A DNA stretch of 64,000 nucleotides. Source: Phorcus lineatus. Taxonomy: Eukaryota > Mollusca > Gastropoda > Trochida > Trochidae. Each line of letters opens with the position of its first letter. The first letter of the stretch is position 1. A program made the position numbers and the translations under genes. Shown piece by piece: positions 23,745 to 60,205 of the stretch. Below the pieces are notes generated by a model. The model saw only the letters and a program-made list of their open reading frames with translations. It searched no databases and was not told where the DNA came from. The stretch spans positions 15,906,701-15,970,700 of the forward strand of contig OV121091.1 in assembly GCA_921293015.1 (NCBI GenBank). The letters run 5' to 3'.

Positions 23745-24800
23745 CCAATTTAGTATTAACAAATGTCGATTACACTTTGAAGATAATAGTTAAAAAATAT
23801 TAAGTTATGTAGATATGACAACTTGACACCCCCCCCCCCCCCTCCTCCCCAACCCCCCTATTCGCTCAACAGCGAGTTGTAAATGTTAACTTGAAGATTT
23901 TCCTTTTTCATACGTCTGCAAGGAATATTTTGATAGCAATTCTTCGTCCTGTTATTATGAATTTTTAAAAAAATTCTTTATTCCTTTTTTAAAAATATTG
24001 ATTGAGTTATTTTTTTATCCTAAAGCACTCAATTTCTGTTATCGAAATATTTCAGGTGTTAATCATTAATTAAAATAAGATCAAAGTGCATTACACTCTA
24101 GGAATATGTTGTAAAGGAAACGTGATAGGGATACATGTTTCAAGGGATTGTTTATGAAAACAATGTTATTTGTGTCCAAGTATGAGACATGTATATATTT
24201 GTGTATATTTAGTAAACATATTTTGATATTGACATTTACATGGCAAAAGTCCTGTAAACAAATTATAAGTATTACTAATATCATTAATATCTTGAGTATG
24301 AATGGAATTTGCAAATTTTAAAGTTAAAGCAAATTAAGAATTATAACTTGCCGTAATAATTTGAAACCCGTGTTTTTAAAAGTTCCTTTCTAGTACAAAA
24401 AAACATATTAGAATTTTAATTGCCTTGGGCCTAGGTCTATCTAATTGCAGACAAACGGATAACGGAGTCGCAGAAGAGAGCTCATATATCAATTGGCCAA
24501 CAACAGCATTCAGATAAAACAAGTTCCAAACTGACAAATATAAGTTATAAAATATATAATTTTTCTCGCACAAATGTTATTGTATATTTTTTCATATAAC
24601 ATCATGCTCGTGTGCATTTCAGATAAATGCAACACGGCAATTTGAATGATCATAGTTCACCCAGCGAAAACAGCATCTGTGAATCAGCGTAGCTCATTCA
24701 TTGTGTTGTAGAATCTATGCGTAGCTAACTGGATGCCCAAACATATGAGCAGAGATATCTAATCACAATTGAACTTTATTTAGTGTATATTCACGCAACA
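23745..24800 (+). repeat. Paralogous block A
   Basis: Aligns in order with 36430-38640 (block B) and 55320-56490 (block C). Shared landmarks include 'acactttgaa(g/a)ataatagtt', 'aaggattgttta', 'gacatgtat', the stretch from 'gacatttaca' to 'cctgtaaaca', 'tatgaa(t/c)gg(a/g)att', and 'gtcgcagaaga(g/c)agctca'. Divergence is high with many indels, so the duplication is old. A poly-C tract (about 23828-23842) interrupts it. No coding frame is conserved that I can see. Confidence 0.75.
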
Positions 24801-25004
24801 AGTTTGTGTTAATTTTTTCTTTTGTAATAAAACCTTGAAATAGCTATTTCAGAAATCTATGTCTGTTTATAGAAGAAAAACAAATACCTGTAAATATAAT
24901 TGTGTACAGATTTCGTTAATGTTAACGTTAAATTCTTTGTCAAATTTACCGGTTTGACGAGGGACATTTTCTCATTCCAAATTTACATGTAACAGGATTT
25001 AGGA

Positions 25005-25200
25005 TTCAAGATATTTTATTTGTAGAAAGGCCAAAGGCCAAAGGCCCAAAGTACAATAAGATTGCTACAACAGAATACAGAGCTATCTAATTTTTGTATG
25101 CATTCAATTACATGTTTAAGGGAGTTGGTGAGATTTATAACAATTATTATCATTTAAAAGGCATACATTTACAAAATAAATATAGTCACATAATATATGT
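25005..25200 (-). repeat. LINE 3'-end fragment
   Basis: Contains 'attttatttgtagaaaggcc' with tandem 'aaaggcc' units and 'aaagtacaata'. On the minus strand this gives a tail like that of the LINE remnants at 20.5 kb ('ttggccta') and 51.9 kb ('gtggccttt'). No coding part remains. Confidence 0.45.
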
Positions 25201-25245
25201 TTTTCATTTAGCAGTACCTAATTCACTTTTAAAAGCACATATTTG

Positions 25246-25399
25246 ACTTTGCATTCTTAATAACCAATAGCTTAAAACCAATACTTTGCATTCTTAACAA
25301 CCAATACCTTAAAACCTATACTCTGCATTTTTGATAACCAATACTTTATAACCAATACTTTAAAACTGATACTTTTCATTCTAAATAACCAATATTAAG
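25246..25399. repeat. 37-bp minisatellite
   Basis: About four degenerate units of 37 bp around the consensus 'gcattcttaataaccaata' plus 'ctttaaaaccaatact'. The third unit has an extra partial copy. Confidence 0.75.
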
Positions 25400-25854
25400 T
25401 AGCTAATTATTGATGCTATTAACATAATGAATCGGCATTTTACGATTTATAGCCAATATGGATGACAGATTTACAAAACTTTCTATGAATAATTTAACAC
25501 AATAGTTACTGAACTGCCATCCCAAAACTTCAGCCTCGTAAGTACGAATTGGAGTAATCCTTTTGTCAAACTTAAAGAAAGATTCTCTTCATTTTTGAAT
25601 TCTGATTAATGATTTTGATGCGTCATTTGCTTGCTCAAGTTTTGTCAAGCTTTCATCCAAACTAGTTAAGGCGTTGCGGTATCTTTCAACCAAAATATAA
25701 ATATGCATTCACAGTTTCATTAAGATTTCCATTAAAGTAGAATATTTCATATCTTGACAAGTGCCCACCCAAAACAGTTGTTTTACTGATGTTACATTAA
25801 TTTCATACCCAATATTTAAGAATACTTATGTAAAGCGTCCAACTCTCCTTTACA
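25400..25854. other. AT-rich stretch, nothing recognised
   Basis: No recognisable feature. Confidence 0.4.
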
Positions 25855-25861
25855 ACACTAT

Positions 25862-26531: not shown

Positions 26532-26539
26532 ACACTATG

Positions 26540-27275
26540 TGCTTGAAATATCAAATCATCGGCAAACAACAAAGCAATTACATGTAACAGCCAATAACCA
26601 TCTCGATTTTTTCAATCACATTGTAGTTAATTCATGTTAAACGATGATACTGTTGTTTACGTCACAATTATGGACAATTTGAAAAATTTCTAATGCTTAT
26701 TACGTTGCCAGTTATTTGTCATCATATATTATTTTATTCTTTGATTCATGTAGGAGACAGCAAAGTGTGGAAATTATCAGTTACAAGTTTGAAGAGCAAC
26801 AAAACAAAATTTGATAGACTCAATCAATGCGATGGTTCTTGTGTTTAAGTTTTAAACAGCAACAAAATAAATCAATGATCAAGTTTAGGTGCCGCTTGTG
26901 GTACTACGATCTGTTTGATCTTTGTGGATGGACATTAACATGTTTGATGACTTCCGATGCTACATGACAAAAATCCAGTTATTTACCTGGTGTAGGTTAT
27001 CAATTCTCATGCGTTTTGGCTCTACGCGTACCAAGATGAGTTTACGAAATGCTGGTTTTGGGCTGGTTATTAGTGGGAAGGTTCAACTGGAATCGCAAAC
27101 ACTTATTTGTTTTTATCAACGGAGATAATTTTTTCAAATTCTTAATTGGATAAAAGGGATTTTAAGATACTGCAACATCGCAAAATCGTCCTTTTAACAG
27201 CTTGGCATTTCATGTTTTGATAGGCGACATTTCTTTTGCGGTTCAATAAATACATGTGCAATCTGTAATACTGTT
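26540..27275. other. Nothing recognised
   Basis: A 68-codon plus-strand frame (26922-27128) has no recognisable motif or partner copy. Confidence 0.4.
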
Positions 27276-27279
27276 TAAT

Positions 27280-27700
27280 CATCGGTGTTCATATTGATGG
27301 CATCAATATAGACTCAGCTTCACTTTAACTCGAATGATATAAGACATGCAATGCAATCAGTATTAACAGATACGATGAAGCGTTATCATTGAGATGAAGA
27401 CAAACATGTCAGAGATCCAGATGTGCTCCTCCCATTAGACTCCTCAGTCAGCCTAGAAGAGCAATTCACAAAGTACCAGAGACAGTCTGTTTTATTTCCG
27501 ACTAGTCAGTTTAATGAGACAAGCATGCCATCTGATGCCTATTTTTTCACACCATTTAATACACAGGAAAATTAAATCAATCTAGAACAATTGAGCTTTG
27601 AAAGTGTCTTAACAAATTGTACATCATAATATCTGCAATTTGAAGGTTTTCCATAACCAACCTAGGTAGTGCAACAGACCAAGGTTTTCAGGAGTCATAT
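27280..27700 (+). repeat. Conserved core, copy A
   Basis: 27372-27540 matches 41622-41790 and 60005-60160. Within it about 120 bp ('cagatgtgctcctccca', 'agactcctcagtcagccta', 'gagacagtctg', 'gacaagcatgcca' region) is about 85-95% identical, against much weaker similarity outside. One plus frame here is open and contains 'VLLPLDSSVSLE'. The same frame has stops in copy B, and a minus frame is open through much of all three copies, so exon, regulatory element and ncRNA remain possible. Similarity to copy B fades out toward 27.7 kb. Confidence 0.7.
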
Positions 27701-27732
27701 GAAACAAATTGTTCAGGGCCTAGATTTTCGCT

Positions 27733-28489: not shown

Positions 28490-28614
28490 AAGAGTTACGA
28501 GTGTTGATAGATTACATCAGATAAAAGGATTTGATCAAGGAAGAAATAATTTGTAAGATGTAAAGAAGTCGCTTGTGTAATACTATAAATGATCAGCTGG
28601 CAATATTTCAACTA

Positions 28615-30092
28615 AACTCTTCAAAAAAAGAAACTTGACATTTTTTCGAAACGGGTCAATTTTTTTCATGATACATACATGTAATTTAAAGAAAGGCTTG
28701 CTCAAAAGTGTAAATTTACCAAAAACAATGGCCCAAAAAGTTTACGTTGTGTTCAGGGACGAAAACGAGCGATTCGTCCAAATGCATTTTCTGCCAAAGC
28801 ACGTGCAGCATGGGGTCATGAAGGTTTACATGCAGACACGTCTGCTTTAGGGGTATAAAAAGCCATATCAGCCGCTGTTCATTCAGACTACACAACATCG
28901 GTACAGCGACCTGAAGAATGCCAAGACTGAACAGAGCGCAACGCAACAACGCTATTGGCAGATTGCAAGCAGGAGCGACGCAGCGAGGTGTTGCAACACA
29001 CTTTGGCGTGTCCAGACAGACCATCTCTTCATTGTTGACCCGTTTCAACACCCGAAACAGCGTTGATGATAGGCCAAGGTCAGGCAGACCAAGGGTGACT
29101 ACTCGGGCCCAAGATCGGTACATCCGACTGCTCCACCTTCGGGAACGCACCAGGACAGCAACGTCAACAACAACGCAGATACCAGGCCTGCGTCGAATTT
29201 CCGAACAAACGGTACGCAACAGGCTGAGAGAGGCTGGACTTTTTCCACGACGACCGGTTCGACGTCCCGTTTTAACGCAACGTCATCTGGCGCAACGTCT
29301 CCAGTGGTGTCAACAGAGAATGAGATGGGCACGTGCAAGGTGGAGAACCGTTCTCTTCACTGATGAGTCCCGTTTTCTGCTTCGACGAAGTGATGGACGA
29401 GCACGTGTATACCGACGTCGTGGAGAACGTTATGCTGCCAACTGTGTTCAGGAGGTTGTCCCATTTGGAGGTGGGAGTGTCATGGTGTGGGTCGGGATTC
29501 GTCACGGTGTTAAAGCACCCCCTTGTGCATGTTGTAGGGACTTGATCCTACAGCCTTACGTTATTCCTCACGTCAACGTCCATGGTGGTCTCTTTCAGCA
29601 GGACAATGCTCGACCACATGTTGCACGTGTTTGTCAAGATTTTTTACAGCGTAACAATGTCCAGACATTTCCATGGCCAGCCAGGTCACCAGATTTGTCA
29701 CCAATTGAGCATCTCTGGGACGAACTGGATCGACGCGTGCGCAGTAGGAATCCACCATCCCAAACACTTCCAGGACTTCTTGCAGCACTTCAGCACGAAT
29801 GGCAAAACATTCCACAGGCTGTGATTGACAACTTGATTGCATTCATGGGTCGTCGGTGCCAAGCAATAATCAATGCCAATTGTGGCCATACCCGATACTG
29901 ACATTTGTGCACCCCTGTGATGTTGAAACACTTGTGCACCTGTGCATTTCAAGATCATGCTTATTCTGAATAAAATTTACTGAACAGAGATCTTCAAACA
30001 GCGTTTTAGTTTTCATTTCAATGTTTAACTTGCATCTGTGGTCTTTATATTGAACTTTGAAAGTCAGTGTCAAGTTTCTTTTTTGAAGAGTT
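28615..30092 (+). mobile_element. Complete Tc1-like transposon
   Basis: A 1478-bp element bounded by TA (28613-28614 and 30093-30094), the Tc1/mariner target duplication. Its inverted repeats are 25-26 bp, AACTCTTCAAAAAAAGAAAC then TTGACA at the left and the same at the right with one A fewer. One transposase gene fills the middle; about 300 bp leader and 190 bp trailer are non-coding. It is absent from the equivalent positions of paralogous blocks B and C, so it arrived after those duplications. Confidence 0.97.
28918..29901 (+). CDS. Tc1-like transposase (DD34E)
   Basis: Catalyses cut-and-paste movement of the surrounding element in the nucleus. The 327 residues carry an N-terminal helix-turn-helix (about 5-45), a GRPR-type AT-hook-like motif (RPRSGRPR, 52-59), a second HTH-like region (about 65-115) and the catalytic triad: D149 in FTDESRF, D229 in QQDNARPH, E264 in SPIEHLWDEL. 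D229 and E264 are separated by exactly 34 residues, as in Tc1. The family glycine-rich segment reads GGGSVMVWVGIR, and residues about 198-207 (APPCACCRDL) do not look like the family. In the neighbouring frame the same DNA gives PLVHVVGT before a stop, suggesting a one-base insertion followed by a deletion of about 20 bp that restores frame. Length is slightly under the usual 340. The first ATG was chosen because MPRLNRAQRN leads straight into the HTH. Open, but probably not fully active. Confidence 0.95.
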   Translation: MPRLNRAQRNNAIGRLQAGATQRGVATHFGVSRQTISSLLTRFNTRNSVDDRPRSGRPRVTTRAQDRYIRLLHLRERTRTATSTTTQIPGLRRISEQTVRNRLREAGLFPRRPVRRPVLTQRHLAQRLQWCQQRMRWARARWRTVLFTDESRFLLRRSDGRARVYRRRGERYAANCVQEVVPFGGGSVMVWVGIRHGVKAPPCACCRDLILQPYVIPHVNVHGGLFQQDNARPHVARVCQDFLQRNNVQTFPWPARSPDLSPIEHLWDELDRRVRSRNPPSQTLPGLLAALQHEWQNIPQAVIDNLIAFMGRRCQAIINANCGHTRY

Positions 30093-30099
30093 TATATTG

Positions 30100-30560
30100 A
30101 CTGTTTTATTGAACTAAGAATATCAATATAATCTACTTGTATATTTTTTTATCTAAAAACACTTAAATGAAAGAAAGTTGTGATTGATAACATTTTAGAA
30201 ATTTTGATCAATACTTCAGTAAGAAATTCTGAATTGTTGCTTTCCAACTGTTTATTATTCTTCTATTTTAAAATATCTTTGTTCACATTTAGATTTGTTT
30301 TGAATTGAAACGGAGCTGTTTACGTCTCTTACGCATCCTTTTTATGTTCTCAAAATATATCATATGACGTCTTAATCGCTACCTTAACATGTGAGACGCC
30401 ACTTTCTATCAAATATGCCGTTGGCAACTTAATGATTAAATGTTATTCAATTAAATGTTATTCAAGTGTTGAATGATGGCAATGTTAATGGTATAAGCTA
30501 TGGGAACCATGGGAAATAATAATTCATTTCAAACGCAGGGTACCTAACATTGATTTTCTT
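30100..30560 (+). repeat. Paralogous segment X, copy A
   Basis: Aligns with the inverted copy at 22850-23285 and with 43395-43690: 'tctattttaaaa', 'acatttagatttgtttt', 'ggagctgtttacgtctc', 'gacgtcttaatcgctacc', 'ttaacatgtgaga'. The position equivalent to the CRE element insertion in the 43-kb copy is uninterrupted here (about 30264-30275). Confidence 0.8.
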
Positions 30561-31019: not shown

Positions 31020-31345
31020 AAATTTGTCAATGTTTTCATATTATTTCCTTTTGAAAGACTTCACATAGGCTTGGTGAATCTCGAAAACAGCAGGAGTCGA
31101 CAGTCAGCATATAGCTTCTACAAAAATAGTTCAGAGGTATAACGGCGCTTATTTTCGGCAATACAAGCCCCTGTGATATCATTACATAACAAAACAATTA
31201 AGGCAAACCAAGATATTTTGTGTTTCTTGATAGGAAAAACTTCATAACAATAAATATTATACAACTATTATATAAGAAAACCTTCAAGCATATCACATTG
31301 CACATGCACCTGCTCATTCAAGAATATCTAATTTAAACTGGTAGT
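31020..31345 (+). repeat. Paralogous segment Y, copy A
   Basis: Aligns with 45010-45235: 'gtcaatgttttcat', 'cagcat(a/c)tagc', 'gcaatacaa', then 'gcacctg(c/t)tcattca'. It follows X in both places, so blocks A and B are colinear here. Confidence 0.7.
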
Positions 31346-33544: not shown

Positions 33545-34694
33545 CACTACAGAAATGACTTGGTTTCCTGAATCCTGGAAACCACAAGTAAAGTGGGTTT
33601 CTCAATTTCATGTACTCATATGAATGTTTTAAGTATCCATACAATTGTTTTCTGTTTCAGAATAAAGACCAATCCAAAACATCTGAAAAGTGAACAGGGT
33701 GAATTGTGTATATTTTGCACTTTTGAAGATTGTTAATTTTGCCATGAATAACTAAAGGCATTTCTAAACCATCATATGCATATTATTCATAGCTGTCATA
33801 AAATAATTATTTCAATGAAGATTGGAGATTTCATAAAAAGTGATAAATTTACGTTACGTTTACGTTTTCTTACTACTCGTTTAAAGATGAATTCATTCTT
33901 TGAAATTGTGTGTTTGGATAAATGTTGATAGTGAATGAAATGGTAATATTTTCTATAAAATGTTTTTATAGGAGGAATGCTTTTTAAAAGATCGGCATAC
34001 ACTTTGAACCACCATAAATTCACACCTACATTTTACCTTGTAGGTAGTTAACTTTCCATGAATGTTTTTTGTCTTTATTGCAATAAATACTTTATGGTAA
34101 TGTGTTTGTTCATTGTACAACATAAATAACACACAATAAACACTACATGGAAACTAATTTGAAACCTACGATAAACTTACAAAACACGGAAACCAAGGTG
34201 AAACCTACAATATATAAGGATATGAAAACCAGTTTGAAACCTACGATAAACTAACAAAACACAGAAACCAAGTTAAAACCTACAATAAACCTGAATATGG
34301 AAACCAGGTTGAAACATACAATAAACTGACTAAACAAGGAAACCAAGTGGAAATCTACGGTAAACTAAAATCACGGAAACCAAGTGGATCCTACTTGGAG
34401 GAGTGTGTAAAGAACGGTGATGGATACCATCCGGATCTGGGGCAAAAGTAGGTTTCAGTTTTCATGGAAACCACAATGAAACTTAAATCACGGAAACCAA
34501 GTGGACCTTACTTGGAGGAGTGTGTAAAGAACGGTGATGGATACCATCCGGATCTGGGGCAAAAGTAGGTTTCCGTTTTCATGGAAACCAACATGAAACT
34601 ATAGAAACCTATCTGGATACCAAGTGGAAATACTGGTTTCCATGTCGTTTCATGGTGGTTTCAATGATCTGGAAACCAAGTCATTTCTGTAGTG
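33545..34694. mobile_element. CACTA-like (EnSpm/CMC) non-autonomous element
   Basis: Termini are CACTACAGAAATGACTTGG and its exact inverse ending TAGTG; the perfect inverted repeat is 24 bp and ends GGTTTCC. A 3-bp target duplication AAG flanks it (33542-33544 and 34695-34697). CACTA ends, 3-bp duplication and many subterminal copies of a short motif (GGAAACC/GGTTTCC, about 34140-34690) are the diagnostic features of this superfamily, where such repeats bind transposase. No transposase is encoded. Confidence 0.85.
34371..34604. repeat. 117-bp tandem duplication inside the CACTA-like element
   Basis: Two units start 'tcacggaaaccaagtgga' at 34371 and 34488. They are about 95% identical through 'ggagtgtgtaaagaacgg' and 'ggataccatccggatct', so the duplication is recent compared with the rest of the subterminal region. 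Confidence 0.9.
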
Positions 34695-35325: not shown

Positions 35326-35754
35326 TGATCAAATAGTTGTCGTTTTACCAAAATCTGACATATCGTTTCACATTAAATATGTATCGGCTCAAAACTTAGC
35401 CCGTCGTTTCAGCAAAAACACACCATCGTGAATGTGTCATAACGGGAGAACATTGCCGGATGCCATGAATATAGATATCAACAAAATGTCACCAATTCCT
35501 GGAATTTGTATCATTCTTTTACTTAAGCTTATTTTTATTTAACTTAAAATTGGAATTTGAATTAAGATGCAACAATGCAATCATTGACTATAATATTCAC
35601 CTATAAAAAGATTTGTGATATATGTTTCAATAAGAAATTTATTCGGGTACATTGTTATGCAGGTTGTAGAAAACTATGTAATAAATCTAACACCGTGATA
35701 TAATGTTTACCATTAAAATGAAGGATTATAGCTATCATTCATTACACACATGTA

Positions 35755-36000
35755 ACACGATGCTGTATCTATTTGGTGGGAATATCGGTTCTCAACCATT
35801 GTTGATGGTAATGACACTACTCGGACGCGGAATAAAAAGCATCTGCTATGATACTAATGGAGATTCTTCCAATGACTAAATTAATTAGCCTGTGAGCCTG
35901 ACAAGGCATGGTTTATGATAATATGTCCTTTTATCATGGATGTGTCAAGGTTAAGAAAATAGTTTATATTTCACGTTGAATGTCCATTCAAGCTTCTTAA
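35755..36000 (+). repeat. Paralogous block start, copy B
   Basis: Matches 54480-54700 and, inverted, 61430-61680: 'acgcggaataaaa(a/c)gca', 'ctgctatgatactaatgg', 'cctgacaaggca', 'ttcacgttgaatgtcc' and 'attcaagct'. Confidence 0.8.
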
Positions 36001-36429
36001 GTATTTTGAATAATGATTTATTTTGTGAAACATTTTGGAGTCAACATTTATGAATTGTGCTATTTTATTTTTTTACTGAATGTTCCTGAAAAGTGCCAAT
36101 TCAAAGCTCTTCTGTTTTGTACAGTTAATCTCTGTAGGTTAACAATTAGGAGCTGATGATGTATGAAGATGTGATTACCACTTTTGCGTTTATAGAAGGC
36201 TACCATTTTCATTGAAAATTAAACTAACGGGCGAAATAAAAATAAAAATAAAAAACTAGAAATAAATAAAACTTAACAATATTTTGTCTGTGTCATCTTT
36301 TCTGAAAACAAAATAAAAAGTGTATCAAACATTCAGATATTCAGATACAGTCTTTTTATAATTTTGAGTTTTTGTGTGTTTACTATTAGTTATCTTTGAT
36401 TCTAAAGCACTCTATTCCTGTTCTAAAAA
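36001..36429. other. Nothing recognised
   Basis: AT-rich, with an A-rich tract near 36235-36270. Confidence 0.4.
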
Positions 36430-38640
36430 TAGTTTAGGACTTCTCAATACTTCAATATTTCTCACTACAAGGATTAATATCAAAATATACCTTCGGCAGT
36501 ATTTGGTTTCAAATATTGTTCTTACTAGTTTACACTTTGCTTGCCAATAATACGGATATGCCATCGTTGCAACAAGAGATCAATTGCAAAGTGCATAACT
36601 CTTATCGAATAAGTATGCAAGGGTAACACGATAGGTAAACAATACCTGTTTTAAAGGGCTTTTTTGTGAAAGCATTTTTATTTTTGTTTTCAGAATAGAA
36701 ATATATTTGTGTTTGTTAAAGTTTATATAACCACAAACATATTTCACTATTTTCTTTGGAATATATGAATGTCTGATTACAATTTTGCATAGTGCGTCAA
36801 AGGTCGCTACTCAAATATGTCCAGTTTGGTAATGAAAGCCGTTTTTGAATACCACTTTTGATGGGCCGCTTAGATCTATCTGGCCACAAACCAGTGAATG
36901 CATGACTGGTCACACACCCTTTTTGTGACGTCATAAACAGAATCATTGCCTCGTGATCTATACATTTATCGTAACAATATCACAGAAAATAACCAATAAT
37001 TAACGATTTTCAGAGAATGTTTTCCACTCAGTCAGATAAATCCTTTGACGATGTAACAATATTAAGCGTTTGGTGTATAAAAGGTATCCACATCAATGGT
37101 TATTAAACAATTATTTAAGGCGGTATTTCAGTTGAAAATTTTGATGCGTCACTCTGTACAGTCTGTTCATTACGTCACACCAGCGCGAATTTTATGGCCC
37201 CTAGCCCAGGTGGGTTTTTCACTGCCTATAATTACGTTGTCTTAATAAAAGGCTAATTAAAGGTGTACATTTGACAAATTAACAAAAATCAAGCCCAGTT
37301 CTTATTTTGTTGAAAAGTCTTTGAACGGAAGTCGAGAAACGATAAAGTCGAGGATATCGGTTGTTTAAGTAGACATATTTCGTTCTTGACATTTACAAAA
37401 GAACATCCCGTAAACAAATTCAGGTAATAATGATAATATAATATTTTTCAACTAGCCATGATCATTTTCTTTCTAAGAAGCAAGAAACGTCAGAAGTTTG
37501 TTTAAATTATCGTTTAAAGTTCTGTTTTAGCATTGTATCAAACTTAAACTTTCTAATCATTTAAAAATTTAAACTTGAAAACTCTTAAAGTTAATTTCTG
37601 GCATAAGAGAATCATTTGATAGGCCAGCCTCATGTAACCTCTCAAATATTGATTCAGAATTCGACAAAATTTAATTTATATTTGTATTTATTCAGTGATC
37701 ATTTTTTTGTTCTTGACATTTACAAGCAAAAGGTCTCGTAAAAAGGTCTCATTAGTAATAAAAGTATCATTGTAATAATGGTTATGAATGGAATTTAACT
37801 AAAATTTGCCATAATAATTTACAAGATCAAGCGACGTCAATCGGTTATTCAAATTATATTTTGAAATCCTTTCGATCTAAAACCTTGAACTTGTTGAACA
37901 TTTAAATGGAAAACCCTGAAACTGAATTTCAGTTGCAAAATCATTTGAAATTTAAACTGCCATAAGTCTGGGGCTATATCAATTCAGACAAACGATTTAT
38001 CCTCTATTGAATAACAGAGTTGCAGAAGATGACTTAAGTAAATCATCATCGGTCTCCTAGGAATTTATCTTCTGAAATTCAACACATCACCCCTTGGAAT
38101 GTTCATCAGTAATATGTCTACACAGCTTACCCACCCTTGAGTTTTGTTAGGAGAAAATATCCAATGAAAAGGTTTCAGAGTGTAAAGGAGAGGATGAGAG
38201 TGCTTAGAAGCGCAGATATCAAAACAATCTTTATAAGCGCATGCTCAGGAACTAGAATTCAAAATTTGAAAGTAAATCCCTGCTTTTTTAAAAATAAAGT
38301 TCGAGAATGTTTCTTATATTTTTATTTCTTCTCCGAGTTTGCTCAAATTTGAAACACATGTTTATCTCCACATATGAAAACGATATACGAGTGCAAAAAA
38401 ATACAAATATTTAATCAGGTATAGTAAAATCAGCGAAAAGAACCTCTGTGAATTAACCCAGGCTGCCATATATGTATGTAATTTGAAAAGCTCAGTGGCC
38501 CTTTCAATGTAGCAGTTTCTTTGGCTCACTAGCCATTCTCACGCCATCAGTACATTCATTAGAGGTACAGAGATATCATATCGATGTTATATTTACCTTT
38601 ATTTAGTATGTATTCTCAATTGCCTCTCGCCTACATCTAT
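36430..38640 (+). repeat. Paralogous block B
   Basis: Colinear with block A (23745-24800) and block C (55320-56490). Landmarks are 'gccaataatacggatatgcc' (C: 'gccaataaaacggttatgcc'), 'acaatacctgttt(t/c)aaag', 'gacatttaca', 'cagacaaacg', and 'gagttgcagaaga'. It is longer than A and C through inserts, including a local repeat: 'ttcttgacatttacaa' occurs at about 37382 and 37712. Confidence 0.75.
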
Positions 38641-41535: not shown

Positions 41536-41539
41536 CTGA

Positions 41540-41960
41540 TGTTCATATCAAAAGCCTCAACTTGGGTTCAACTGCACTTGTACTCGAACTATCATTGATG
41601 TGGAGTCAGTAATAAAAATTTAGATGAAGCGTTATACTAGAGATGTAGACTCGAAATGCAAGAGATGCAGATGTGCTCCTCCCATAAGACTCCTCAGTCA
41701 GCCTAGAGCAGCTAGTCACTGAGTACCAGATACAGTCTGTTTTATTTCCGACTCGTCAGCATAATGAGACAAGCATGCCATCTGATGCTTATTTTACTAT
41801 TATCAACTGGATACATTGAAGAAAACTAGCGTAATTCAGCCGATTGTTTGAAAGTGTGACGAATGGTCCATCATTATATCTTCAGAAAATGTGTAAATAT
41901 ATAGTTGCGCATAACCTACCTGAATTGGTTCAGGAAAGGTGTTTCAATCAAACCGATGCA
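41540..41960 (+). repeat. Conserved core, copy B
   Basis: Core 41622-41790 matches copies A and C. It differs from C at few positions over 'agcctagagcagctagtcac' and from A at few over 'tctgttttatttccgact'. Stops interrupt the plus-strand frame that is open in copies A and C. Similarity to A continues weakly to about 41960. Confidence 0.75.
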
Positions 41961-43386: not shown

Positions 43387-43394
43387 TCAAATAT

Positions 43395-43690
43395 CTTTGT
43401 TGGCATTTAGATTTGTATAGAATTGGAAGGCAGCTGTTTACGTCTCCTATCTATATTCTCAAAATGTATCAAATAACGTCTTAATCTCTACCTTAACATG
43501 CGATAGGGTGATTAAAATAACTTCCTGTGATTATATATGCCTAAGGCAACTTATCTTATTAAACATGTTATTGTAGTGTTGGATGATGAGAATGTCAGTT
43601 ATATAAGTTATGTTTTCATGGGAATTAGCAATTCATTTCAAAGCAGGGTGCATTACATTGATTCAAAGAAAGTGTTTTCTATATATTTGC
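43395..43690 (+). repeat. Paralogous segment X, copy B
   Basis: Aligns with 30260-30560 and inverted 22850-23110. A 71-codon frame starting at 43537 contains 'NVSYISYVFMGISN', similar to the minus frame at 22857-23051. Confidence 0.75.
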
Positions 43691-43801
43691 CTTTTACCGA
43701 ATGTATACTATATCGTATACCTAGTATTAAATTTCATGGCGTGTTGGGCTAATTTGTACATATTTGTATGGGTAGTGTTGGCAGTCTTGCCTTACCCTGA
43801 G

Positions 43802-44533: not shown

Positions 44534-44570
44534 TACCCGGAGGAGGGGAGTTCAAATTCAATAACTGTTA

Positions 44571-44862: not shown

Positions 44863-45009
44863 GTGAAGGCATACAGATTTAAACATATTTTGCAAATAAA
44901 ATGGAAAGAAACTGTCTCGAATGAGTTGACCATGGTATACACTGTTTTGTTTTACGATTTGCTTCATTTGTCCAGTCCACAGTAAGGTTGGTTATTAGTC
45001 AAATAGAGA

Positions 45010-45235
45010 AATGTGTCAATGTTTTCATGCTATTATTTTCAAAAAAATGTAGATAAGCTTGTTCAGTCTAGATAATGGATTCAGTCCACGGGCAGCATCT
45101 AGCAATGAGTTAAAAGGTTACAACAGGGTTTATATTTGCAATACAAAACCGTTTCATGTAGAAATGTTTACCCGCACCTGTTCATTCACTAATATGGGGA
45201 AAAAATGGTGAAATAAGTGATAAATTATTAGTTAA
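45010..45235 (+). repeat. Paralogous segment Y, copy B
   Basis: Colinear with 31020-31345; see that entry for landmarks. Confidence 0.7.
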
Positions 45236-51269: not shown

Positions 51270-51560
51270 GTAAGCATTGTATTCAATGACATTATCAAAC
51301 TTCTATTATCTTGTCATATTTTAATTGGCAATTTTCATCTCTAAGACAATTTCTTTATTTTCCACCAGTAAAGAAGATTCATGTTAAATATTTCACCATA
51401 ACATTTTATATTATCAAATTATTGCCGCTGCCTTATAAAGAAAGACGGACAAAACGTGAAATAATTTCCTTCTTGAAAGAAAGGAAATGATAAATTGTGT
51501 TCACATCTAGTTATAAAAAAGATGTCACTTGTTGACAAAAGATTAGAAGTCTCTGTCTTA
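51270..51560 (+). repeat. Paralogue of inverted 62.85-63.1 kb
   Basis: 'attattgccgctgcc', 'ttccttcttgaaagaaagga', 'aatgataaat' and 'cacatctag' match the minus strand of 62895-63000 in order. It is the left landmark of the block C / block D relationship. Confidence 0.8.
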
Positions 51561-51929
51561 ACATCTAATCTTATTATTCGTTTCTTCTTTCATGTATCGA
51601 TTGAAAACAAAATAGTGGAGATAAAAATATAAATTCCCAGGAAGGTATTAGTTTTATGATTTTTTGCCAAGTGTTTATATAACAGCTCATTTGTTTCTAA
51701 GGATCAAGTGAAAAGGTTCTTCTATTCAGCTGACGTCCACTGGTCATATAAAAGCAAACATTCTAGGTTTGATAACATTACTTGAAATTTTCATTCAATT
51801 ATATGTGATCATTAGAGTATATTTTCCCCGGCCTGCTAAGTATGGCAAGTGCTGTTTACGTAAAAGGAATGTAAAACAGATGTTTTGTTAGATTTGAAAC
51901 AAAAGAAAAAATCGACCCTTCAATCTAAA

Positions 51930-52690
51930 ATCAATCTTTTTTCAATGCTAAAGGCCACAGGCATATAGTACAATTTGAAAGATAATACAAAATATTACAA
52001 TTTAAGATTCATATGAATGATGATGTTACCTTAAACACAAATTATTAAATGTGCTTAACTGTTACTGTCCGCTTCTGAATGCTTGGTATATAAACATTGC
52101 AAGATTCTAATTACAATGAAAGGTTTACAATTTCATTACTATTTTTCTCTTGTGGGATGGACGTCATAAATTTTCTCTAAGGTATTTTTACGTAAAGTAT
52201 CGTATAATGGACACACGAGAAAAAAATGGTCTTCATGTTCCAAAACGTTGTTATTAAATGATTTACAAAGTCTTTCCTCTCTTTTCATATTAAGAAATCT
52301 GCCCTTTTTCAATCCACAAATCATGTGATGAACAGAAACTTAACCTAAACTTTCTTATAGTAAAACATGATAAATAATACTCAGTATAAAAGTATGGTTT
52401 AAAAGGTTTTAACAGTACTCACATTTAGTGGAAAGGGAAAGTTTATAAAGGCAGTTTTGTTGGTAGACATCCTTAAGTCTCTGTGAAAATGAGTTTAGTA
52501 GCCTTGTTGGAAAAATTTACTTTTTGCTCAAACCATATGTAATTAAATCCTGTTTTCAATAATAGCTTCTTTTCATTTACATCTGTTATCAGATTCTTTT
52601 GTCCATTTTGGTAATTTAAGATAATCATTTCATAACAGCTTTTGGGTAAACGATAAGAGGGCATATTAAGTAGTCTCACCCAGTACTTAA
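51930..52690 (-). pseudogene. LINE ORF2 C-terminal fragment with 3' UTR
   Basis: On the minus strand, 52679-52473 reads 'MPSYRLPKSCYEMI', 'NGQKNLITDV', 'LLLKTGFNYIWFEQKV', a region seen between the thumb and the C-terminal zinc-like motif of animal LINE proteins. After broken sequence, 52324-52139 reads 'ERLCKSF' then 'LEHEDHFFLVCPLYDTLRK', the zinc-like motif itself. The lower end (51930-52138) is non-coding and ends with 'gcctgtggcctttagc', the likely 3' UTR. 5'-truncated and frameshifted. Same broad family as 48.7 kb. Confidence 0.8.
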
Positions 52691-52771
52691 TATTTTAACT
52701 TGAATTTATTACAAGCGGAAATCTCCTGCATTCCCCATATGCCGTCGCATTAGGTGTGCTAATCTTTATCC

Positions 52772-53490
52772 CTAGAAAACCTATAATCATGAATCTCATT
52801 TTCATCATATTGTCATCATGTAAACAAACGTCCGAATTTCTTCCAAATTTTATATTTCATATCAATTAGAAATTCTTTCATAAATAGCATATTTTTGTGA
52901 ACAGTTCTCCATGTTAAATTGCAAACGCCTGTTCATTCGACCGATATCGCCTTAGGCATCTTCAACAAGCCAACGGTCAGTGATTACGTCGCCTTATATA
53001 TGTATGTTCTGCCTTTCAATCCCTCATAACATTCATTAAGCTGTTACCACAATCAGCTCCCTTTGTTCAACATCCAGCATGTGGCATGCAAAACCAGTTG
53101 CGTAGCAATATGTTGGGTGTTGTTATATAACATCTATGTGCTTAAATACGTAGAGAGGTTCTCTCTCTTCAGACTCCTGTAAGACTCCAGCTAGACTCCC
53201 TTTGGCCAATATGTAGCTCTGCCTTTGTATACCCCAGTCTTGACACAGTTTGGAGTTGAGTCTCCACGACAGAGTTTGGGAAATAACTCTGTCGTGTACT
53301 CCAAATTGTGACTGTACCACCGGCTCGGGGATGACCTTTATAACATGATCCATCAACGCCAAATAAAAGAAATGGTCGACCACAAACAACAGTCTCCAGT
53401 CTTCTTCTTGAATTCATCTTCCCTTGTCTCCGAGGTTCCACTTTCAAAATATCTAGAAAACCTATAATCGTGATTCTCATTTTCATAGTT
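52772..53490. repeat. Segment bounded by 35-bp direct repeats
   Basis: 'ctagaaaacctataatca' plus 'tgaatctcattttcat' ends the left side (52773-52806) and recurs at about 53453-53486 with two differences. The inverted paralogue at 62.45 kb has only one copy. The roughly 680 bp between is GC-richer and has two overlapping minus frames of 88 and 105 codons with no family match. It could be a local duplication with expansion or an insertion. Confidence 0.6.
53241..53313. other. Hairpin with perfect 12-bp inner stem
   Basis: CACGACAGAGTT (53265-53276), 8-nt loop, AACTCTGTCGTG (53285-53296). Outer arms 'acagtttggagt' and 'actccaaattgt' add further pairing with a small bulge. Confidence 0.75.
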
Positions 53491-53769
53491 CTTTAAAGTC
53501 AACTCATAAGTCATAAGATCACCAAGGCTTGTTACGAGCACATTAATTATACTCCGAAAGTTTTAACAAACACTACCTATCTTTGTGCAAATGTTATAAT
53601 AATTGTGATGTCTTTCATGCATCTTCAAATGACCATTTCAAGTTTCTTTTTATATCTCAAATAAGTTACAAACAGCGACAAACATGAACTGTATATTTTC
53701 TTCTGAGCCTGTACTTGTGATGTCAATGTTCTGAACTAGTCCATATGAAAAGCTTTGTTTCAGAGAAAA

Positions 53770-54075
53770 GTGATATGAGGTTTAACGCCGCTTTCAAGAG
53801 TATTTCACTTATATCGCGGCTGCTAGTGTTATTGCAGGGAGAAATCCCGCAACACTATTGTGGCTATGCATTGCGGTGAAACCTGTGAGCATCGGCTGGA
53901 ACTAGTGAGCCATGGGTGGTACTGGACTGAAATTCATTGTAGCATTGCACCCAAACCCGACTGCGTGTAGAACAGTTCTCTACTGCAGACAAAGTTGCCG
54001 AGCCCCTGGAGGGATTCGAACCAAGGACATCTTGATCCGAAGCCGAACGCGCTAACCACTGCGCTATTACGTCCC
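53770..54075 (-). mobile_element. tRNA-Arg-like SINE, copy 1
   Basis: On the minus strand the 5' end is a tRNA-like head (54075 to about 54000): A box 'tagcgcagtggttagcgcg', anticodon loop CTTCGGA (TCG, Arg-like), B box 'ggttcgaatcccTC'. The body runs to the conserved 'gccgcgatataagtgaaat' and a 3' tail 'agcggcgttaaacctca'. It is about 80% identical to 60419-60711. The inverted paralogue at about 62.02 kb lacks it, so it inserted after that duplication. Confidence 0.9.
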
Positions 54076-54079
54076 CTAT

Positions 54080-54700
54080 TGTGCCAAAGTATGAAACCTT
54101 GCACCATTGACTTGACTATCATATAATACGTTTAATAAAGATAACTGTACACATAGACAAAGGATGATACTTTAATTTGTCAGTGAAGTTGAAGTAATGA
54201 AGTTGAGGGCTAAGGGAAATCCAAATTACAGGATATTTACAGTTATAGACAACAATATGTGAACAAACTTTCAGGATAAAGCTCATGGAAAAATGAAATA
54301 ATTTTCAATAAGAGGATAACATCAAATTTCTAAGGTTTCCTCGTTTAATAAAGTTACGTACCATTGTTGGAACTTATATTATGCAATAAAACTAAAGAGG
54401 AGATTCGACGTCTACCTTTACAAAGATCAACATTCACTGCAAACCCGTAAAACAGTCATCATGGTTTTCATGCTGTGATATGATCGGATCTCCAACGTTC
54501 TTAATGTCTATGTGGCACTGTGGGGGACACGGAATAAAACGCACTTGCTGTCATACTAATGGTTACTCCTTACTGAGTTGTGTATTAGTCTGACAAGGCA
54601 ACCCTTGGATATCTATCACATTTCAATTAAGTGTAGAGGTTGAAGAACTAACTATATTCCACGTTGAATGTCTATTCAAGATAAACGATAGTATTTTAGA
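54080..54700 (+). repeat. Paralogous block start, copy C
   Basis: Matches inverted 61430-62025 ('gtgccaaagtatgaaacctt', 'attgacttgac', 'attacaggac/tatttac', 'ggacacggaataaaa', 'cttgctgtcatactaa') and, over its last 220 bp, 35755-36000. Confidence 0.85.
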
Positions 54701-54704
54701 AACA

Positions 54705-55315
54705 TTTTTAAAAAGGAAAGAGGCATCTTTGTCCCTACAAGTGAAAATTTTTGCAACAGATATGTAAATGCCATGTCATAAGAAAGCTTATCATAAGAAA
54801 TGAAACTTTTTGTCGAAACTTACAAATGTAGGAAACTTTGTATGGATACTGCAAGTTTACCCACTCAGTGCTCTTATCCTTCCCTAAATACATGCAAACA
54901 TTTAAACGTGTTCCTTTCATGAATTTTTCAAAACAAATCTGGTCTGGGTGCTACCCGTCAACCGGACACTGCTAAACTTCTTATATGTTGGAAGATAATA
55001 TGTATTCATAACACAAAAGAAATAAATAACATAACGGAAGTTAATCGCGTCTACTTTTTGCATGTTTCGATTCATAGAGCATATACAATAACTAAAACGC
55101 TTAGAATTTTCAGAGATATTTGATATTTCAAACTACTAAACATTGTATCCATAACTTATTTCAGTGTGTCATTATCCGTAATCACAAAGCACGCACATTT
55201 ACTTAAACATACTCACAAGCAAAAACAAAATACTTTTCTTTAAAGTTATTGTAATGTTGACTATAAAGCAAGAGTTAGGTTTTCTATGTCGTATATATTC
55301 TTATCAAATATAATA
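54705..55315. other. AT-rich stretch, nothing recognised
   Basis: No recognisable feature. Confidence 0.4.
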
Positions 55316-55319
55316 TGTA

Positions 55320-56490
55320 CTCAGCCGTCTATATAGTTACAAAAGTCAATGACACTTTGAAAATAATAGTTCGAAAATATTTGTCTACATCAAAAGAACC
55401 TTTCCCCTTTTCTCCCAACAGGCTGTTGTAATTGTTAATATGGAAAGAGTTTTTGTTGGGATGTCTTTTAATCAATGAAAGGAAAATTTACATTGCAGGT
55501 CTTCATCCTATAATTATCAATCTATTTTTAAATTTCTTTGGTCCAAATTTGATTTGTTTTGATATTGATAGAGTTATTTAAGTTTCTATCGAGCCCTATT
55601 TCTGCTCTCAAGATATTTTAGGTCTTGATCATTAATTCAGCACTTGAAATTTCGAATAACAAGGACTAATTCTTATTAAATATGCCTTGGGCAGTCTTAG
55701 GATTCAATTATCTGTTTAACTATTTTACACTAGACATGCCAATAAAACGGTTATGCCATCAGTGCAATAAAACCTCAAAGTGCGTGAGACTCTATGAATT
55801 TATGGGCATTGGAACCATGATAGAGATACAATACCTGTTTCAAAGGATTGTTTAGTAAAGCAATTATATTTATGTTTACTTAATAGACATGTATTTTTGT
55901 TAACTAAGTAAATATATTTCGTTGATATTTATAAGCAAAAAGCCCCTGAGCAAGTTATTTGTAACATTAGTGTCATTATATTCATGATTATGAACGGGAT
56001 TTATAAACTTTAAATTCAATTTTAAATAAAGCATAACAAAATATTATTACCTGCCATGAATGTGCAACCTCAGCAATAAACTATGTAAGTGTTGACAGTG
56101 TTATTTTATTGAATATTTGGAGTATACATCTTTTAAAGGTTGATTTCATTTTAGAATCTAAGTTTTCATACGACTTGATCAATCTCATTTTATTCAAATG
56201 ATAAATCATAATATAAGTAAGTCGCAGAAGACAGCTCAAAATTCAATTAGCGAAGACCGGCATAAAATCAAAAGTGTTTGAAAGTTAAAAAATATTATCA
56301 AATTAACATCCAATATGTTTTTTCGCACAATCGTTATCATGTACATTTAGATATAAACCTAATGCCATGTTTTTTTCATCTTAGCCAAGAAAACGCCCTC
56401 TGAATAACCATAGATCATTATGACAATAACAGCGTTTGTGTAGCCGGGTAGCTCATTTCATTGACTTGTTATAGATAGCGATACGAGGAT
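55320..56490 (+). repeat. Paralogous block C
   Basis: Colinear with blocks A and B; shares 'acactttgaaaataatagtt', 'aaaggattgttta', 'gatatttataagcaaaa', 'gtcgcagaagacagctca' and 'gtagctcatttcattg'-type strings with A. Confidence 0.75.
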
Positions 56491-56494
56491 TTCG

Positions 56495-57355
56495 GCTTGA
56501 TAGATGTCAGCATATTGCTGAGGTATGTGCCAATTATATGAACATGATTTGCTTAAAATTGCTCATATCAACAAATAAAAAAATAGTTTTTGTGTGTAAA
56601 GATTACAAAGATGCAAATTTAAGAAACATGGTTTCACCATCAGATTTTAAAGTATCCTTCCATGAAGAGAAAAAAGAAGACAAAAGATTTACCCCTTGCC
56701 AAATGAAATCGTTCTGTCAATAAAAGAAAAGCACGTTTCAGAAATGCAACCTTGATAAACATCCAAAACCCTTTAACCTGATGCAGTCAACCGTTTAAAA
56801 AATTAAGAGTAAAGAATTCAAGAATTCATTGAGTTTTTCAGATAAAACACAAATGATAATAATCTTAAACCATAACATATCATGTCTTGAAACAATTATC
56901 GTGGGCAAAAAATGGACAATCATAACTTTAGCCGATACAATGCAATTTGATATTACCAAATGTGATAAAATGATCTTACTAAATGATATCGTTGTGTCAT
57001 TTTCCTGCTTTATAGGTCAAAGACCTTTCAGAAATTAATTAAAAAGACTTTTCAAGCATTTGCTTTCATCACTCATGACTTACAATTTTGTGGTAGATTC
57101 CATAGAAATTAGATTTTCACTACATCTCAGTCTACATAATACAGTGATTGGAATTCATTAAATTGTGATATGAATAGTCATCAAATGTTAAATGAAGAGT
57201 TAATGAAGTACTTTAAAGGGACAGTAGCGTATTATTTCAGGTAAACTAAGTGATCTCACGAAACCGAAAATATATGTTAACAATTGCAAGGCAATCGTTT
57301 TAATCAAAAGAAGAGTTTCATAACCACGTAATATGTACCCATCTACCTTAAATGA
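56495..57355. other. Mostly featureless; weak paralogy to 38.9-39.1 kb
   Basis: Two frames of 61 and 69 codons lie here without recognisable motifs. Confidence 0.4.
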
Positions 57356-57360
57356 TAAAA

Positions 57361-57600
57361 TGATATTAACACGAAAACGACCACAAGCAGTTCTCTATAA
57401 TACTTTCTACTTTCCTCAACTGAGGACAAACGGGTAGAGTGATAAAGTGTTTAACCCTCTGAAGATACATCTTCTTCAGCAGATATTAACACGAAAACGA
57501 CCACAAGCAGTTTTCTATAATACTTTATACTTTCCTCTACTGAGGATAAACGGGTAGAGTGATAAAGTGTTTAAACCTCTGAAGATACATCTTCTTTAGC
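57361..57600. repeat. Exact-period 120-bp tandem duplication
   Basis: Two units, 57361-57480 and 57481-57600, differ at seven positions (about 94% identity) with no indel. Each ends in the imperfect palindrome 'ctgaagatacatcttcttcag'. Confidence 0.97.
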
Positions 57601-59060
57601 AGGGTCACCAACTCCAATGACTTGCTTGTTACTCTGCTTATCGTCCAGGCTGCTGCGATGGATCGCAATATTCCAATGAGAAATCATAATAGAATTGTAA
57701 CTTTTTACCGAAGAGGGCGCTGCACCCAAAGCACGATTTTTGATGGGTTGGTAGCAATGTTTAAATTAGCCAGAGATAAATAATGTTAAAGTTTAAAACC
57801 ACGTGTTTGAAGATGCTGATGGATGTTTTCATTGAAAAAAACTTAGAAGAAAGAAATTTAACATAGAAACGTGCTAGTAGACCTTTGATATGAACGGGTT
57901 GATAGAAAGTGGAAAGGTTTGAAAAAGCCCTTCAGAGGATATTTTTTCTTAGAAGGTTTGCGTTTGTAGCTCGTCTATATTATTCATTATAAGAAGTAGG
58001 AGTAGGGATGGATGATGGTAAATGTAAGATATGTATAAGTTTGCTCTTTTGTCCAGACAGATAAAAGTCCAGATAAATTGTATTTCATTAAATATATTTA
58101 AAATTCTTTGTGGAAAAAGTTACAGTATCCCTTTTCTTGACGAGAAAGAAAATGGATAAGACTTAACTGCACGTGTGTTGCGCCCTATATCAGTGATACA
58201 TCGACAACAAGTTTATGGTCACCTATTCTTTTTCGATTTCAGCAATAAATTTGTGTTTAAAGAGATATTAGGAAGTGAAAGAACATACCTTTGTAAATAT
58301 TATTGAGAACGTACGTAAGTCAAAACGTTTTACATTCAAAATGAACTATATATGGCAGCATTACTCATCTAAACATCTGAAGACTCATCTCTTCAAACTC
58401 GCCTACTTTTTCTCTTAAGTGCTTCGAGCACAATACATATGACATATAGAAAGGGACTCTAAAACAAGAACTGTTACTATTATTAGATGTATAACTCTAT
58501 TGACAACCAGTTGTCGTGTATGAGTAAATGTCTAAATATCTTATTCTATAGAAATCTTGCCATCATGTAATGTTAATAATGAAAGATCATAAAACAACAT
58601 TGTAAAATAGTGTTGCAGTTTTCAGTAAGTCAAACATTTGAGTTGTTATGTAACCTAGCTTACACTAGAGATTACTTTTGGTTTCTTGAACGTCTAGCAC
58701 AGGCTGCTGGAAATAGCTATATGTAGACGTTCTATAGAAGGATTAATTTATTGAAAGCAGATTAGCTCAGATTTCTGTCTCGTGCATTTGACTTTGCAAT
58801 CATTCTGTTGAACCACTGTTTTCAACTCTCGTGAATACCTGTTTCTTCTAGTTACTGTTGTATAACTGTTTTGACCTAGGACAAGGTTTATATATAAAGT
58901 AAGGTTATCTTTGTGGCTCGTTTCATATTATAATTATTATGTCACCTAAAATATTTTTATTATCAATTAATTTATTATGATTATGTCTAATTGTAATATT
59001 TTTCCGGCTTACAAGGGCAATTAACTCATTTCAAATTAACACGTAATATCTCTGTCACTT
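57601..59060. other. AT-rich stretch, nothing recognised
   Basis: No supported gene or repeat family member. Confidence 0.4.
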
Positions 59061-59064
59061 TCGA

Positions 59065-59260
59065 TGGTTCTGGGTTTTTTTTGGTCGTTCCAAATTTCAG
59101 TCGTACTAAAACTCCTGTCTATCCCTCACTATGCCTATCTTTTCCATTATCCCTTCGATCCTTTTCGACTTCATCTGTCCACTCTCTTTTGGATGCTTGT
59201 CATCCATGTGTTTTACAATTGAAGTATTGTTGCAAAACACGTTAAACCTCAACTCACGCA
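59065..59260 (+). repeat. SINE-like repeat, family GTGAGTGAG, copy 5
   Basis: Same orientation as 48255-48393: 'gtccactctcttttggatgc', 'tgtcatccatgtg', 'caaaacacgttaaacctc', 'aactcacgca'. Confidence 0.85.
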
Positions 59261-59264
59261 TGCA

Positions 59265-59915
59265 CTTCACACTATGCGAAATTGTATAGTCACGTGTGTG
59301 AAAGTAACAAAGTGATCACCTTATGATCACCTTATTAGAATTCACATTCACCAAGTTACATTTTGTATTCCTTCAAACACAATCCTCTTCAAACTTTCAT
59401 TTACAATCCCTAACCTCCCAATGATGATCCTTAATTAAGATCAAAACATTTCAGCTTCTTAGGAAGTTTTATATTTCGCCTTTAAAAAACGAGACGGAAG
59501 AAAACCACATATTAGGCAATTTAGGACTGATTAGCAGCCAAGTCATTCAAATGTTCTATCTTCTCTTGATATTTTTTACGTTACAAAGAGTAACTTACCT
59601 TCTTTTTGGGTATGTTCTCAGTGTCTTCGAACAGGGACAGTCTGCCTTTGTCAGTTGCAAAGATAAGAACTTTTTTAACCCGCCTTACTTGACTTTAGAA
59701 TTTCATAAAGGTCAATTGAAAACTCAGTGACTTAATCAATATGGAAACGCTGATTCTTTACAATGCTAAACCTGATACGGATTGCTGAAAATAAATTCAA
59801 TCATTAATCAAAGTGGCTTACAATTTGTTGCAAAAATGTGATCTTTTTTTTTCTTTTTTAAGATATTCTGTCTGTTTCAGCATACCATATATAAGTGGAA
59901 TTATAAAACTGCTTA
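59265..59915. other. AT-rich stretch, nothing recognised
   Basis: No recognisable feature. Confidence 0.4.
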
Positions 59916-59919
59916 GTTG

Positions 59920-60205
59920 CAGATGTTCATATCAGAAGTCTCAACTAAGGTTCAACAGCACTTTAACTCTAACTATCGTAGACATGCAATCGGTATAAAA
60001 ACGAAACATTATCTTTGAGATGGAGACTGAAAATGTCGGAGATCCAGATGTGCTCCTCCCATTAGACTCCTCAGTCAGCCTAGAGCAGCTAGTCACTGAG
60101 TACCAGAGACAGTCTGGGTTATTTTCCACTCTTATGGGACGAGCATGCCATATGATGCTTATTTTGCGGTCATCAACCGGATCAAGATGATATGAATCAA
60201 AATCT
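59920..60205 (+). repeat. Conserved core, copy C
   Basis: Core 60005-60160 as in copies A and B. Upstream, 'ggtataaaaacg' (59990-60001) looks like a TATA box about 25-30 bp before the conserved stretch; the equivalent sites in A and B (tattaaca, taataaaaat) are weaker. Plus frame from 60020: METENVGDPDVLLP and on, with no family match; the minus frame is open for 93 codons across the whole segment. Confidence 0.75.

Follow-up and report, generated by a model that had tools for sequence, protein, structure and literature searches.

The 64,000-nucleotide stretch of Phorcus lineatus DNA analysed here (the window) is built around three old direct copies of one genomic block and is flanked by two tachykinin genes that resemble their Pacific abalone counterparts. 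We lean towards the reading that it is locally duplicated intergenic DNA carrying a selected non-coding element, probably cis-regulatory and likely for a tachykinin gene. The window was examined together with 100 kb on each side (264 kb in total); negative positions lie upstream of its first letter. The three blocks are as follows.

23.8-31.3 kb, plus strand: block A, colinear direct copy
35.8-45.2 kb, plus strand: block B, colinear direct copy
54.5-60.2 kb, plus strand: block C, colinear direct copy

The blocks are duplicated as a tandem segmental duplication would be: several parts recur in neighbouring copies with their order and orientation preserved, at identities of 64-83% in the measured segments. 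The colinear chain scores were 727 for A-B, 532 for A-C, and 624 for B-C. The same blocks gave 91, 177, and 281 in the reverse-complement control and 46, 138, and 163 in the reversed-sequence control, respectively; 165 of the 281 came from one piece of an inverted duplication. Because the chains exceed both controls, the view of the initial annotation that three old direct copies form the backbone of the window is borne out, and its opposite, scattered short matches without colinearity, does not describe the data. All three cores lie on the plus strand, and their offsets of 14,254 (A-B) and 18,384 (B-C) agree with the 14.3 and 18.4 kb given before. Many of the chain links are short and weak, and two of the A-C chain (28210 and 29340) sit within transposon or repeat sequence. 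A high score did not always mean a block when 28 pairs of 8-kb tiles were compared. The tiles at 0 and 40 kb scored 562, of which 451 came from a single repeat match, and those at 48 and 56 kb scored 492 forward and 589 in reverse.

Outside the core, the following segments were recognised.

23751..24797, plus strand: block segment, copy A; 5' part X-like; matches 55332-56519 in pieces (64-74%) and 37677-37796 (74%)
36388..38034, plus strand: block segment, copy B; split by a repeat insert at about 36716-37000
55332..56519, plus strand: block segment, copy C; holds an X-like piece at 55493-55708
30204..30557, plus strand: X, copy A; 72% identical to 43389-43663 (blastn); recovered by the genome search with copy B
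43389..43700, plus strand: X, copy B; query of the genome search
22825..23181, minus strand: X, inverted copy; a short way upstream of block A; 73% identical to X of A and 71% to X of B
31020..31327, plus strand: Y, copy A (weak); 31020-31115 matches 45009-45103
45009..45195, plus strand: Y, copy B (weak); matches Y of A
51361..54731, plus strand: left arm of an inverted duplication surrounding block C; colinear with 63043-61413 on the minus strand
61413..63043, minus strand: right arm of the inverted duplication; pairs with 51361..54731

The nhmmer profile built from copies A and C of the block segment matched copy B at 36388-36745, 37355-37429, and 37677-38034. The insert in copy B is a repeat with at least 40 copies in the genome, and 39 other places match it at 94-98%. 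The likeness of the 5' part of the block segment to X was found at 55493-55708 (nhmmer E 2.4e-12), and a weak block match was seen at 72779-72874 (E 0.01). Among the landmarks named initially, X holds and also occurs inverted, whereas Y is weak (70%, 40 bits between A and B), its support being its place in the chain. The loss of X and Y from the third block stands in part: chain and nhmmer profile searches found neither downstream of the core in C, but the block segment of C contains the X-like piece. The inverted duplication around block C is old. The matching pieces of its left arm are 51361-51916, 53458-53552, 54078-54252, 54513-54565, and 54698-54731, and a part of its right arm (61435-61739) also matches 35732-36037, inverted. 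A signal-peptide candidate is present at 43736, between X and Y of block B.

The copy number was determined in the 958-Mb genome. The core gave three matches, X (copy B as the query) three, and the C block segment two, each count including the query, and all of them were within the window. The parts are thus not the genome-wide high-copy repeats that the initial annotation had named as a possible objection, and their low, local copy number is that of a tandem segmental duplication down to a limit of about 71% identity. The search with the C block segment missed the known A copy, which is about 70% identical, and the search with X missed the X-like piece at 55.5 kb. Therefore, the statement that copies occur nowhere else is valid for copies at least about 71% identical over about 280 bases; within this limit, the blocks are locus-specific. 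Another 43,002 bases taken from other places contained no match to the core, X, or the block segment.

The core is the best preserved part of the unit.

27250..27637, plus strand: core, copy A; inner part 27413-27546; 77% identical to B and 78% to C (aligned columns)
41538..41884, plus strand: core, copy B; inner part 41665-41798; 79% identical to C (blastn)
59889..60182, plus strand: core, copy C; inner part 60037-60163; 7-bp deletion relative to A and B

The inner part, about 120-130 bp long, is 87-91% identical across all three copies (A-B 90%, A-C 87%, B-C 91%). Its K2P distances are 0.10-0.14, based on 13, 16, and 11 substitutions per pair, against 0.23-0.49 for the block segment and X. 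The inner core thus changed much more slowly than its surroundings, as a conserved non-coding or regulatory element would, in a comparison between paralogs. A slow core showing no coding pattern most likely works as DNA. We infer that selection has kept it slow, and it is probably a cis-regulatory element. The duplicated regulatory region proposed initially is an inference that fits this slow non-coding core.

Neutral segmental duplication, in which the blocks are functionless and the cores are alike by gene conversion or chance, is unlikely in our judgement but has to be taken seriously. Divergence is high in the block and X pieces, the region abounds in local duplications of either orientation, and the similarity of the cores drops at one 3' edge common to the copies, sharply for A-B. 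Gene conversion between the cores could give a false appearance of constraint. On the other hand, the best 120-column window falls inside the core at overlapping places in all three pairs and was reached by only 0, 0, and 2 of 2000 column shuffles, which assume that columns are independent.

It appears improbable that the core belongs to a tandem gene family as a short coding exon, whether still alive or only recently dead. The G+C content of the inner core is 43-45% compared with 21-34% in the block segment and X. One frame of copy A runs for about 60 codons without a stop, and on the minus strand there is a frame that stays open throughout the inner part of each of the three copies. However, the plus frame is broken in B by a stop and in C by the 7-bp deletion, and the minus-strand ORF over the core of C had no Pfam match. 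The codon-phase counts of the core (11/10/6, 11/8/9, and 9/9/6) revealed neither codon periodicity nor a third-position excess, and no frame common to the three copies had a protein-like substitution pattern. X likewise displayed no shared open frame; parts of two of its copies resemble each other in one frame, which is interrupted in copy A. In the Pfam search, only Tc1-type transposase matches were above the cut-off among 20 chosen window ORFs, and nothing was above it for two further ORFs in the blocks. The tandem gene family with unseen exons suggested at first is therefore not upheld for the blocks, but a real tandem duplication of a tachykinin gene lies just outside the window.

A non-coding RNA gene or its exon, in three copies, is still less probable. 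The minimum-energy folds pair both ends of the inner core in all three copies, a pairing that is lost in the plus-strand centroid fold of B, and no fold was stable in all copies. The folding z-scores were -2.39, +1.01, and -0.84 on the plus strand and -1.90, -0.22, and -0.52 on the minus strand. Rfam gave no family at the gathering score over the window, and a permissive search with the core of B alone returned one sub-threshold match (E 0.41), located outside the inner part. Copies of an old transposable element are hardly credible: X also occurs inverted, the block segment is partly X-like, and the weak match at 72779-72874 might be counted in their favour, but several parts are matched in one order over 6-9 kb and no further genome copies were found at the search sensitivity (about 71% identity).

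The two flanking genes have a signal peptide and tachykinin motifs, FXGXR-G or YXGXR-G followed by a dibasic site or a stop.

-60.6 to -56.9 kb, plus strand: TK2-like gene, signal peptide and tachykinin motifs
150.7-152.2 kb, plus strand: TK1-like gene, signal peptide and tachykinin motifs

In the upstream gene, ..KRGPFGFVGSRGRR.. is encoded at -59.8 kb, and ..KRKPHFGFHGSRG-stop follows at -56.9 kb; in the downstream gene, ..KRFGYVGSRGKR.. is encoded at 151.4 kb, and ..KRQPNFGFHGVRG-stop follows at 152.2 kb. When the 264 kb were scanned for first exons with a signal peptide, five plus-strand candidates emerged, two of which are at these genes (-60578 and 150733). Neither precursor was assigned to a Pfam family. 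Among the Pacific abalone peptides, KPHFGFHGSRa (TK2) and FGYVGSRa (TK1) have exact counterparts encoded beside the window, GRHFGFVGSRa and pQPHFGFHGVRa closely resemble the remaining two, and TELGFGYVGSRa (TK1) is without a counterpart among the motif matches here (PMC9521575). Judged by titles and the openings of abstracts, no report on the genomic arrangement of TK1 and TK2 was found, and one may be published.

Some 210 kb separate the two genes, and broken TK2 copies lie in this interval. The TK2 exon region is tandemly triplicated (-60.0, -33.4, and -19.6 kb); the matches downstream of the copies are colinear, and copies 2 and 3 are broken by stops or frameshifts. The K2P distances of the copies are 0.20-0.40, similar to the divergence of the window blocks. 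Their exons are only slightly more alike than their own introns, which makes it difficult to tell age from constraint in these copies. Local matches cluster in two islands, from -60 to -10 kb and from 20 to 70 kb, with few in between, so the triplications of TK2 and of the window need not be one process. The TKd1 landmark matched at -2306 (E 5.9e-12) and at 1137-1394 (E 6.8e-9), which may mark a fourth, decayed TK2 unit reaching the start of the window.

The nearest core is about 84 kb from TK2 and about 90 kb from TK1. In the window and flanks, the core profile found no convincing copy adjoining either gene; its other matches had E values of 0.15 (41320), 0.89 (159264, minus strand), and 4 (145713). 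The link between core and genes is therefore one of neighbourhood. The core was also considered as a divergent tachykinin exon, since its GDPD...PSDAYF resembles by eye GDPD...PSEAMF of TK2 exon 2, but shuffles failed to support this. The DNA score against the three TK2 copies was reached by 38-229 of 300 shuffles (nine tests) and the protein score against TK2 copy 1 by 14-296 of 300 (18 frame tests), and the TK2 profile had no match in the cores. Window blocks as extra copies of the TK2 unit were rejected as well, as profiles of its landmarks had no convincing match in the blocks. The intron profile matched at 57224-57322 (E 0.00066), the place of a dispersed repeat, and at 40883-40983 (E 0.13, minus strand), and the exon profile at 42146-42211 (E 1.7). 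Elsewhere in the window, the intron profile matched 5042-5285 (E 1.8e-10) and 9146-9367 (E 4.8e-6), both on the minus strand and apparently of the same repeat family. The TKd2 profile includes a dispersed repeat, having matched DNA from another place, and blastn gave no match between the blocks and the TK1 gene.

In the explanation that we favour, a selected non-coding element within locally duplicated intergenic DNA, the DNA between TK2 and TK1 would have been duplicated repeatedly. A unit containing TK2 would have given three tandem copies, two of them now broken, and a separate unit (block segment, core, X, and Y) the three window blocks, with pieces nearby undergoing inverted duplication. 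Erosion of the copies by indels and transposon insertions would have followed, while the inner core changed much more slowly in all three. The core would act, for example, as an enhancer, a promoter, or a non-coding first exon, and its target would probably be a tachykinin gene. A bolder version sees in the cores three copies of one distal regulatory element or non-coding first exon, common to or split between both tachykinin genes and multiplied alongside the TK2 expansion; it is tentative and rather doubtful.

Birth-and-death evolution proceeds by tandem segmental duplication with pseudogenes. The locus resembles it in its direct copies in one place, their unequal decay, and one good-looking gene with broken copies; it differs in that the window unit has no recognisable gene and its best-kept part looks non-coding. 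Like conserved non-coding elements and duplicated enhancers, the core is short, slowly changing, and lacks a coding pattern, whereas its conservation is seen between paralogous copies in one genome. An anonymous repeat-like pattern can thus be assigned to a definite locus, the interval of a tachykinin gene pair that local duplication has caused to expand and decay. If the core has no regulatory role, nothing more than an ordinary, old segmental duplication is at hand. If it has one, it offers three paralogous copies of one element for measuring what selection keeps and a handle on the control of molluscan neuropeptide genes. Should the triplicated shared element be true, a neuropeptide control region would have grown by duplication along with its own gene cluster.

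The DNA between two tachykinin genes was locally duplicated. Self-comparison of the window by blastn placed three copies of the core, one of the ordered landmarks (block, core, X and Y) of the units A, B and C, and the copies are mutually 73–79% identical.

27250-27637, core of unit A
41538-41884, core of unit B
59889-60182, core of unit C

The offsets are 14,254 (A-B) and 18,384 (B-C), in agreement with the spacings of 14.3 and 18.4 kb in the initial annotation. The colinearity it proposed was confirmed by chaining weak block-to-block matches in order. The chain scores were 727 (14 pieces) for A-B, 532 (10 pieces) for A-C and 624 (10 pieces) for B-C, against 46–281 for controls with one block reverse-complemented or reversed. 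Block, core and X form the strong links, and many of the others are short and weak. In the highest control (281, B-C reverse complement), 165 came from part of a genuine inverted duplication. Other tile pairs among the 28 of the window also reached 562, owed chiefly to a single repeat hit (0/40 kb), and 589, owed to inverted matches (48/56 kb, reverse).

The genome (958 Mb in 74 contigs) was searched with the landmarks. Counting the query itself, the core and X of B gave three matches each and the block of C gave two, all within the window. The C block did not return the A block, and X of B did not return the X-like piece at 55.5 kb; therefore, a copy must be roughly 71% identical over some 280 bases to be returned. 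Down to this limit, core, X and the C block match inside the window alone, and the reading of the blocks as local copies rather than a dispersed repeat holds. The piece at ~36716-37000 inside block B is an inserted genome-wide repeat, found at 94–98% identity in at least 39 other places (40 scored of 938 candidates). Two dispersed repeat families (53770-54077 and 60419-60706; 43989-44856, 18161-18415 and 59090-59260) recur within 100 kb of the window.

Other rearrangements and insertions were mapped as follows.

22825-23181, inverted copy of X
51361-54731 versus 63043-61413, old inverted duplication, its arms enclosing block C
28613-30094, Tc1-type transposon in unit A, terminal inverted repeats of ~27 bp
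39753-40414, broken Tc1-type transposase remnant in unit B

Given the inverted X and the likeness of the block's first part to X, smaller duplications appear to have assembled the unit, either ahead of the triplication or in its course. The transposon of unit A keeps an uninterrupted transposase frame (328 aa, 28915-29898; PF01498, PF13358). The unequal lengths of the units are partly explained by these Tc1-type insertions. Minisatellites lie at 34133-34601 and 57362-57602, and their repeat units measure ~36–39, 75, 117 and 120 bp, the last present twice. A 136-codon frame at 60911-61318, to which Pfam assigned no family, presumably resembles a reverse transcriptase end.

Within 100 kb on either side of the window, two tachykinin genes were found (negative positions lie upstream of the window start).

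-60.6 to -56.9 kb, TK2-like gene
150.7-152.2 kb, TK1-like gene

The former has, in order, a signal peptide with splice donor, ..KRGPFGFVGSRGRR.. and ..KRKPHFGFHGSRG-stop. The latter has, at 150733, a candidate signal peptide with strong donor, then ..KRFGYVGSRGKR.. and ..KRQPNFGFHGVRG-stop. Pfam gave no family for either precursor. Among the Pacific abalone peptides in Table 2 of PMC9521575, KPHFGFHGSR-amide (TK2) and FGYVGSR-amide (TK1) are identical to peptides of these genes. A third peptide of the abalone, TELGFGYVGSR-amide (TK1), had no counterpart here by motif search. By its tachykinins the animal is probably a gastropod. A scan for signal peptides with donors gave five candidates on the plus strand of 264 kb, under rules looser than those of an earlier version that returned none and missed even the TK2 exon. 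One of the five, a signal-peptide-like frame with a good donor, lies directly after X in B (43736-43816).

The TK2 exon region is itself tandemly repeated (-60.0, -33.4 and -19.6 kb), with further-downstream matches colinear in each unit; stops or frameshifts disrupt the second and third copies. Bases of low-copy local matches, no more than 45 kb apart, were counted per 10-kb bin. They form one island from -60 to -10 kb (1925–4736 bases per bin) and another from 20 to 70 kb (1186–1903), with 153–628 in the bins between (-10 to 20 kb). Most of the remaining bins stay below 800; 1867 bases fall in the one at 110 kb. Therefore, the blocks of the window are the second duplication island between the two tachykinin genes. 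No TK2-unit landmark was convincingly detected in blocks A-C; the triplicated units are therefore not the same in the two islands.

K2P distances over aligned columns, a measure biased towards alignable pieces, were 0.20–0.22 for TK2 exon 2, 0.24–0.29 for its intron, 0.23–0.40 for further TK2-unit pieces, 0.31–0.49 for block pieces and 0.23 for X. The whole core gave 0.20–0.28, against 0.10–0.14 for the inner core (27413-27546, 41665-41798 and 60037-60163). In every pair, the best-conserved 120 columns lie within the core, at overlapping positions, and their value was reached by 0 (A-B), 0 (A-C) and 2 (B-C) of 2000 column shuffles.

A similarity of the core to the TK2 exon was not supported. 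Core A has one long open plus frame, in which B contains a stop and C has lost 7 bp, and substitutions by codon phase were 11/10/6, 11/8/9 and 9/9/6. On the minus strand, one frame stays open through the inner core of all three copies; judged by reading, most differences between copies alter its amino acids. Folding z-scores showed no consistent excess across the three cores on the plus (-2.39, +1.01, -0.84) or minus strand (-1.90, -0.22, -0.52), and an Rfam search of the window gave no family at gathering score. Gene conversion among the cores is the main alternative to selection as the source of their likeness. Selection has likely kept the core. The distance from any core is at least about 84 kb to TK2 and at least 90 kb to TK1. 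On the basis of its position and its non-coding constraint, we infer that the core may be regulatory, with a tachykinin gene as its target.
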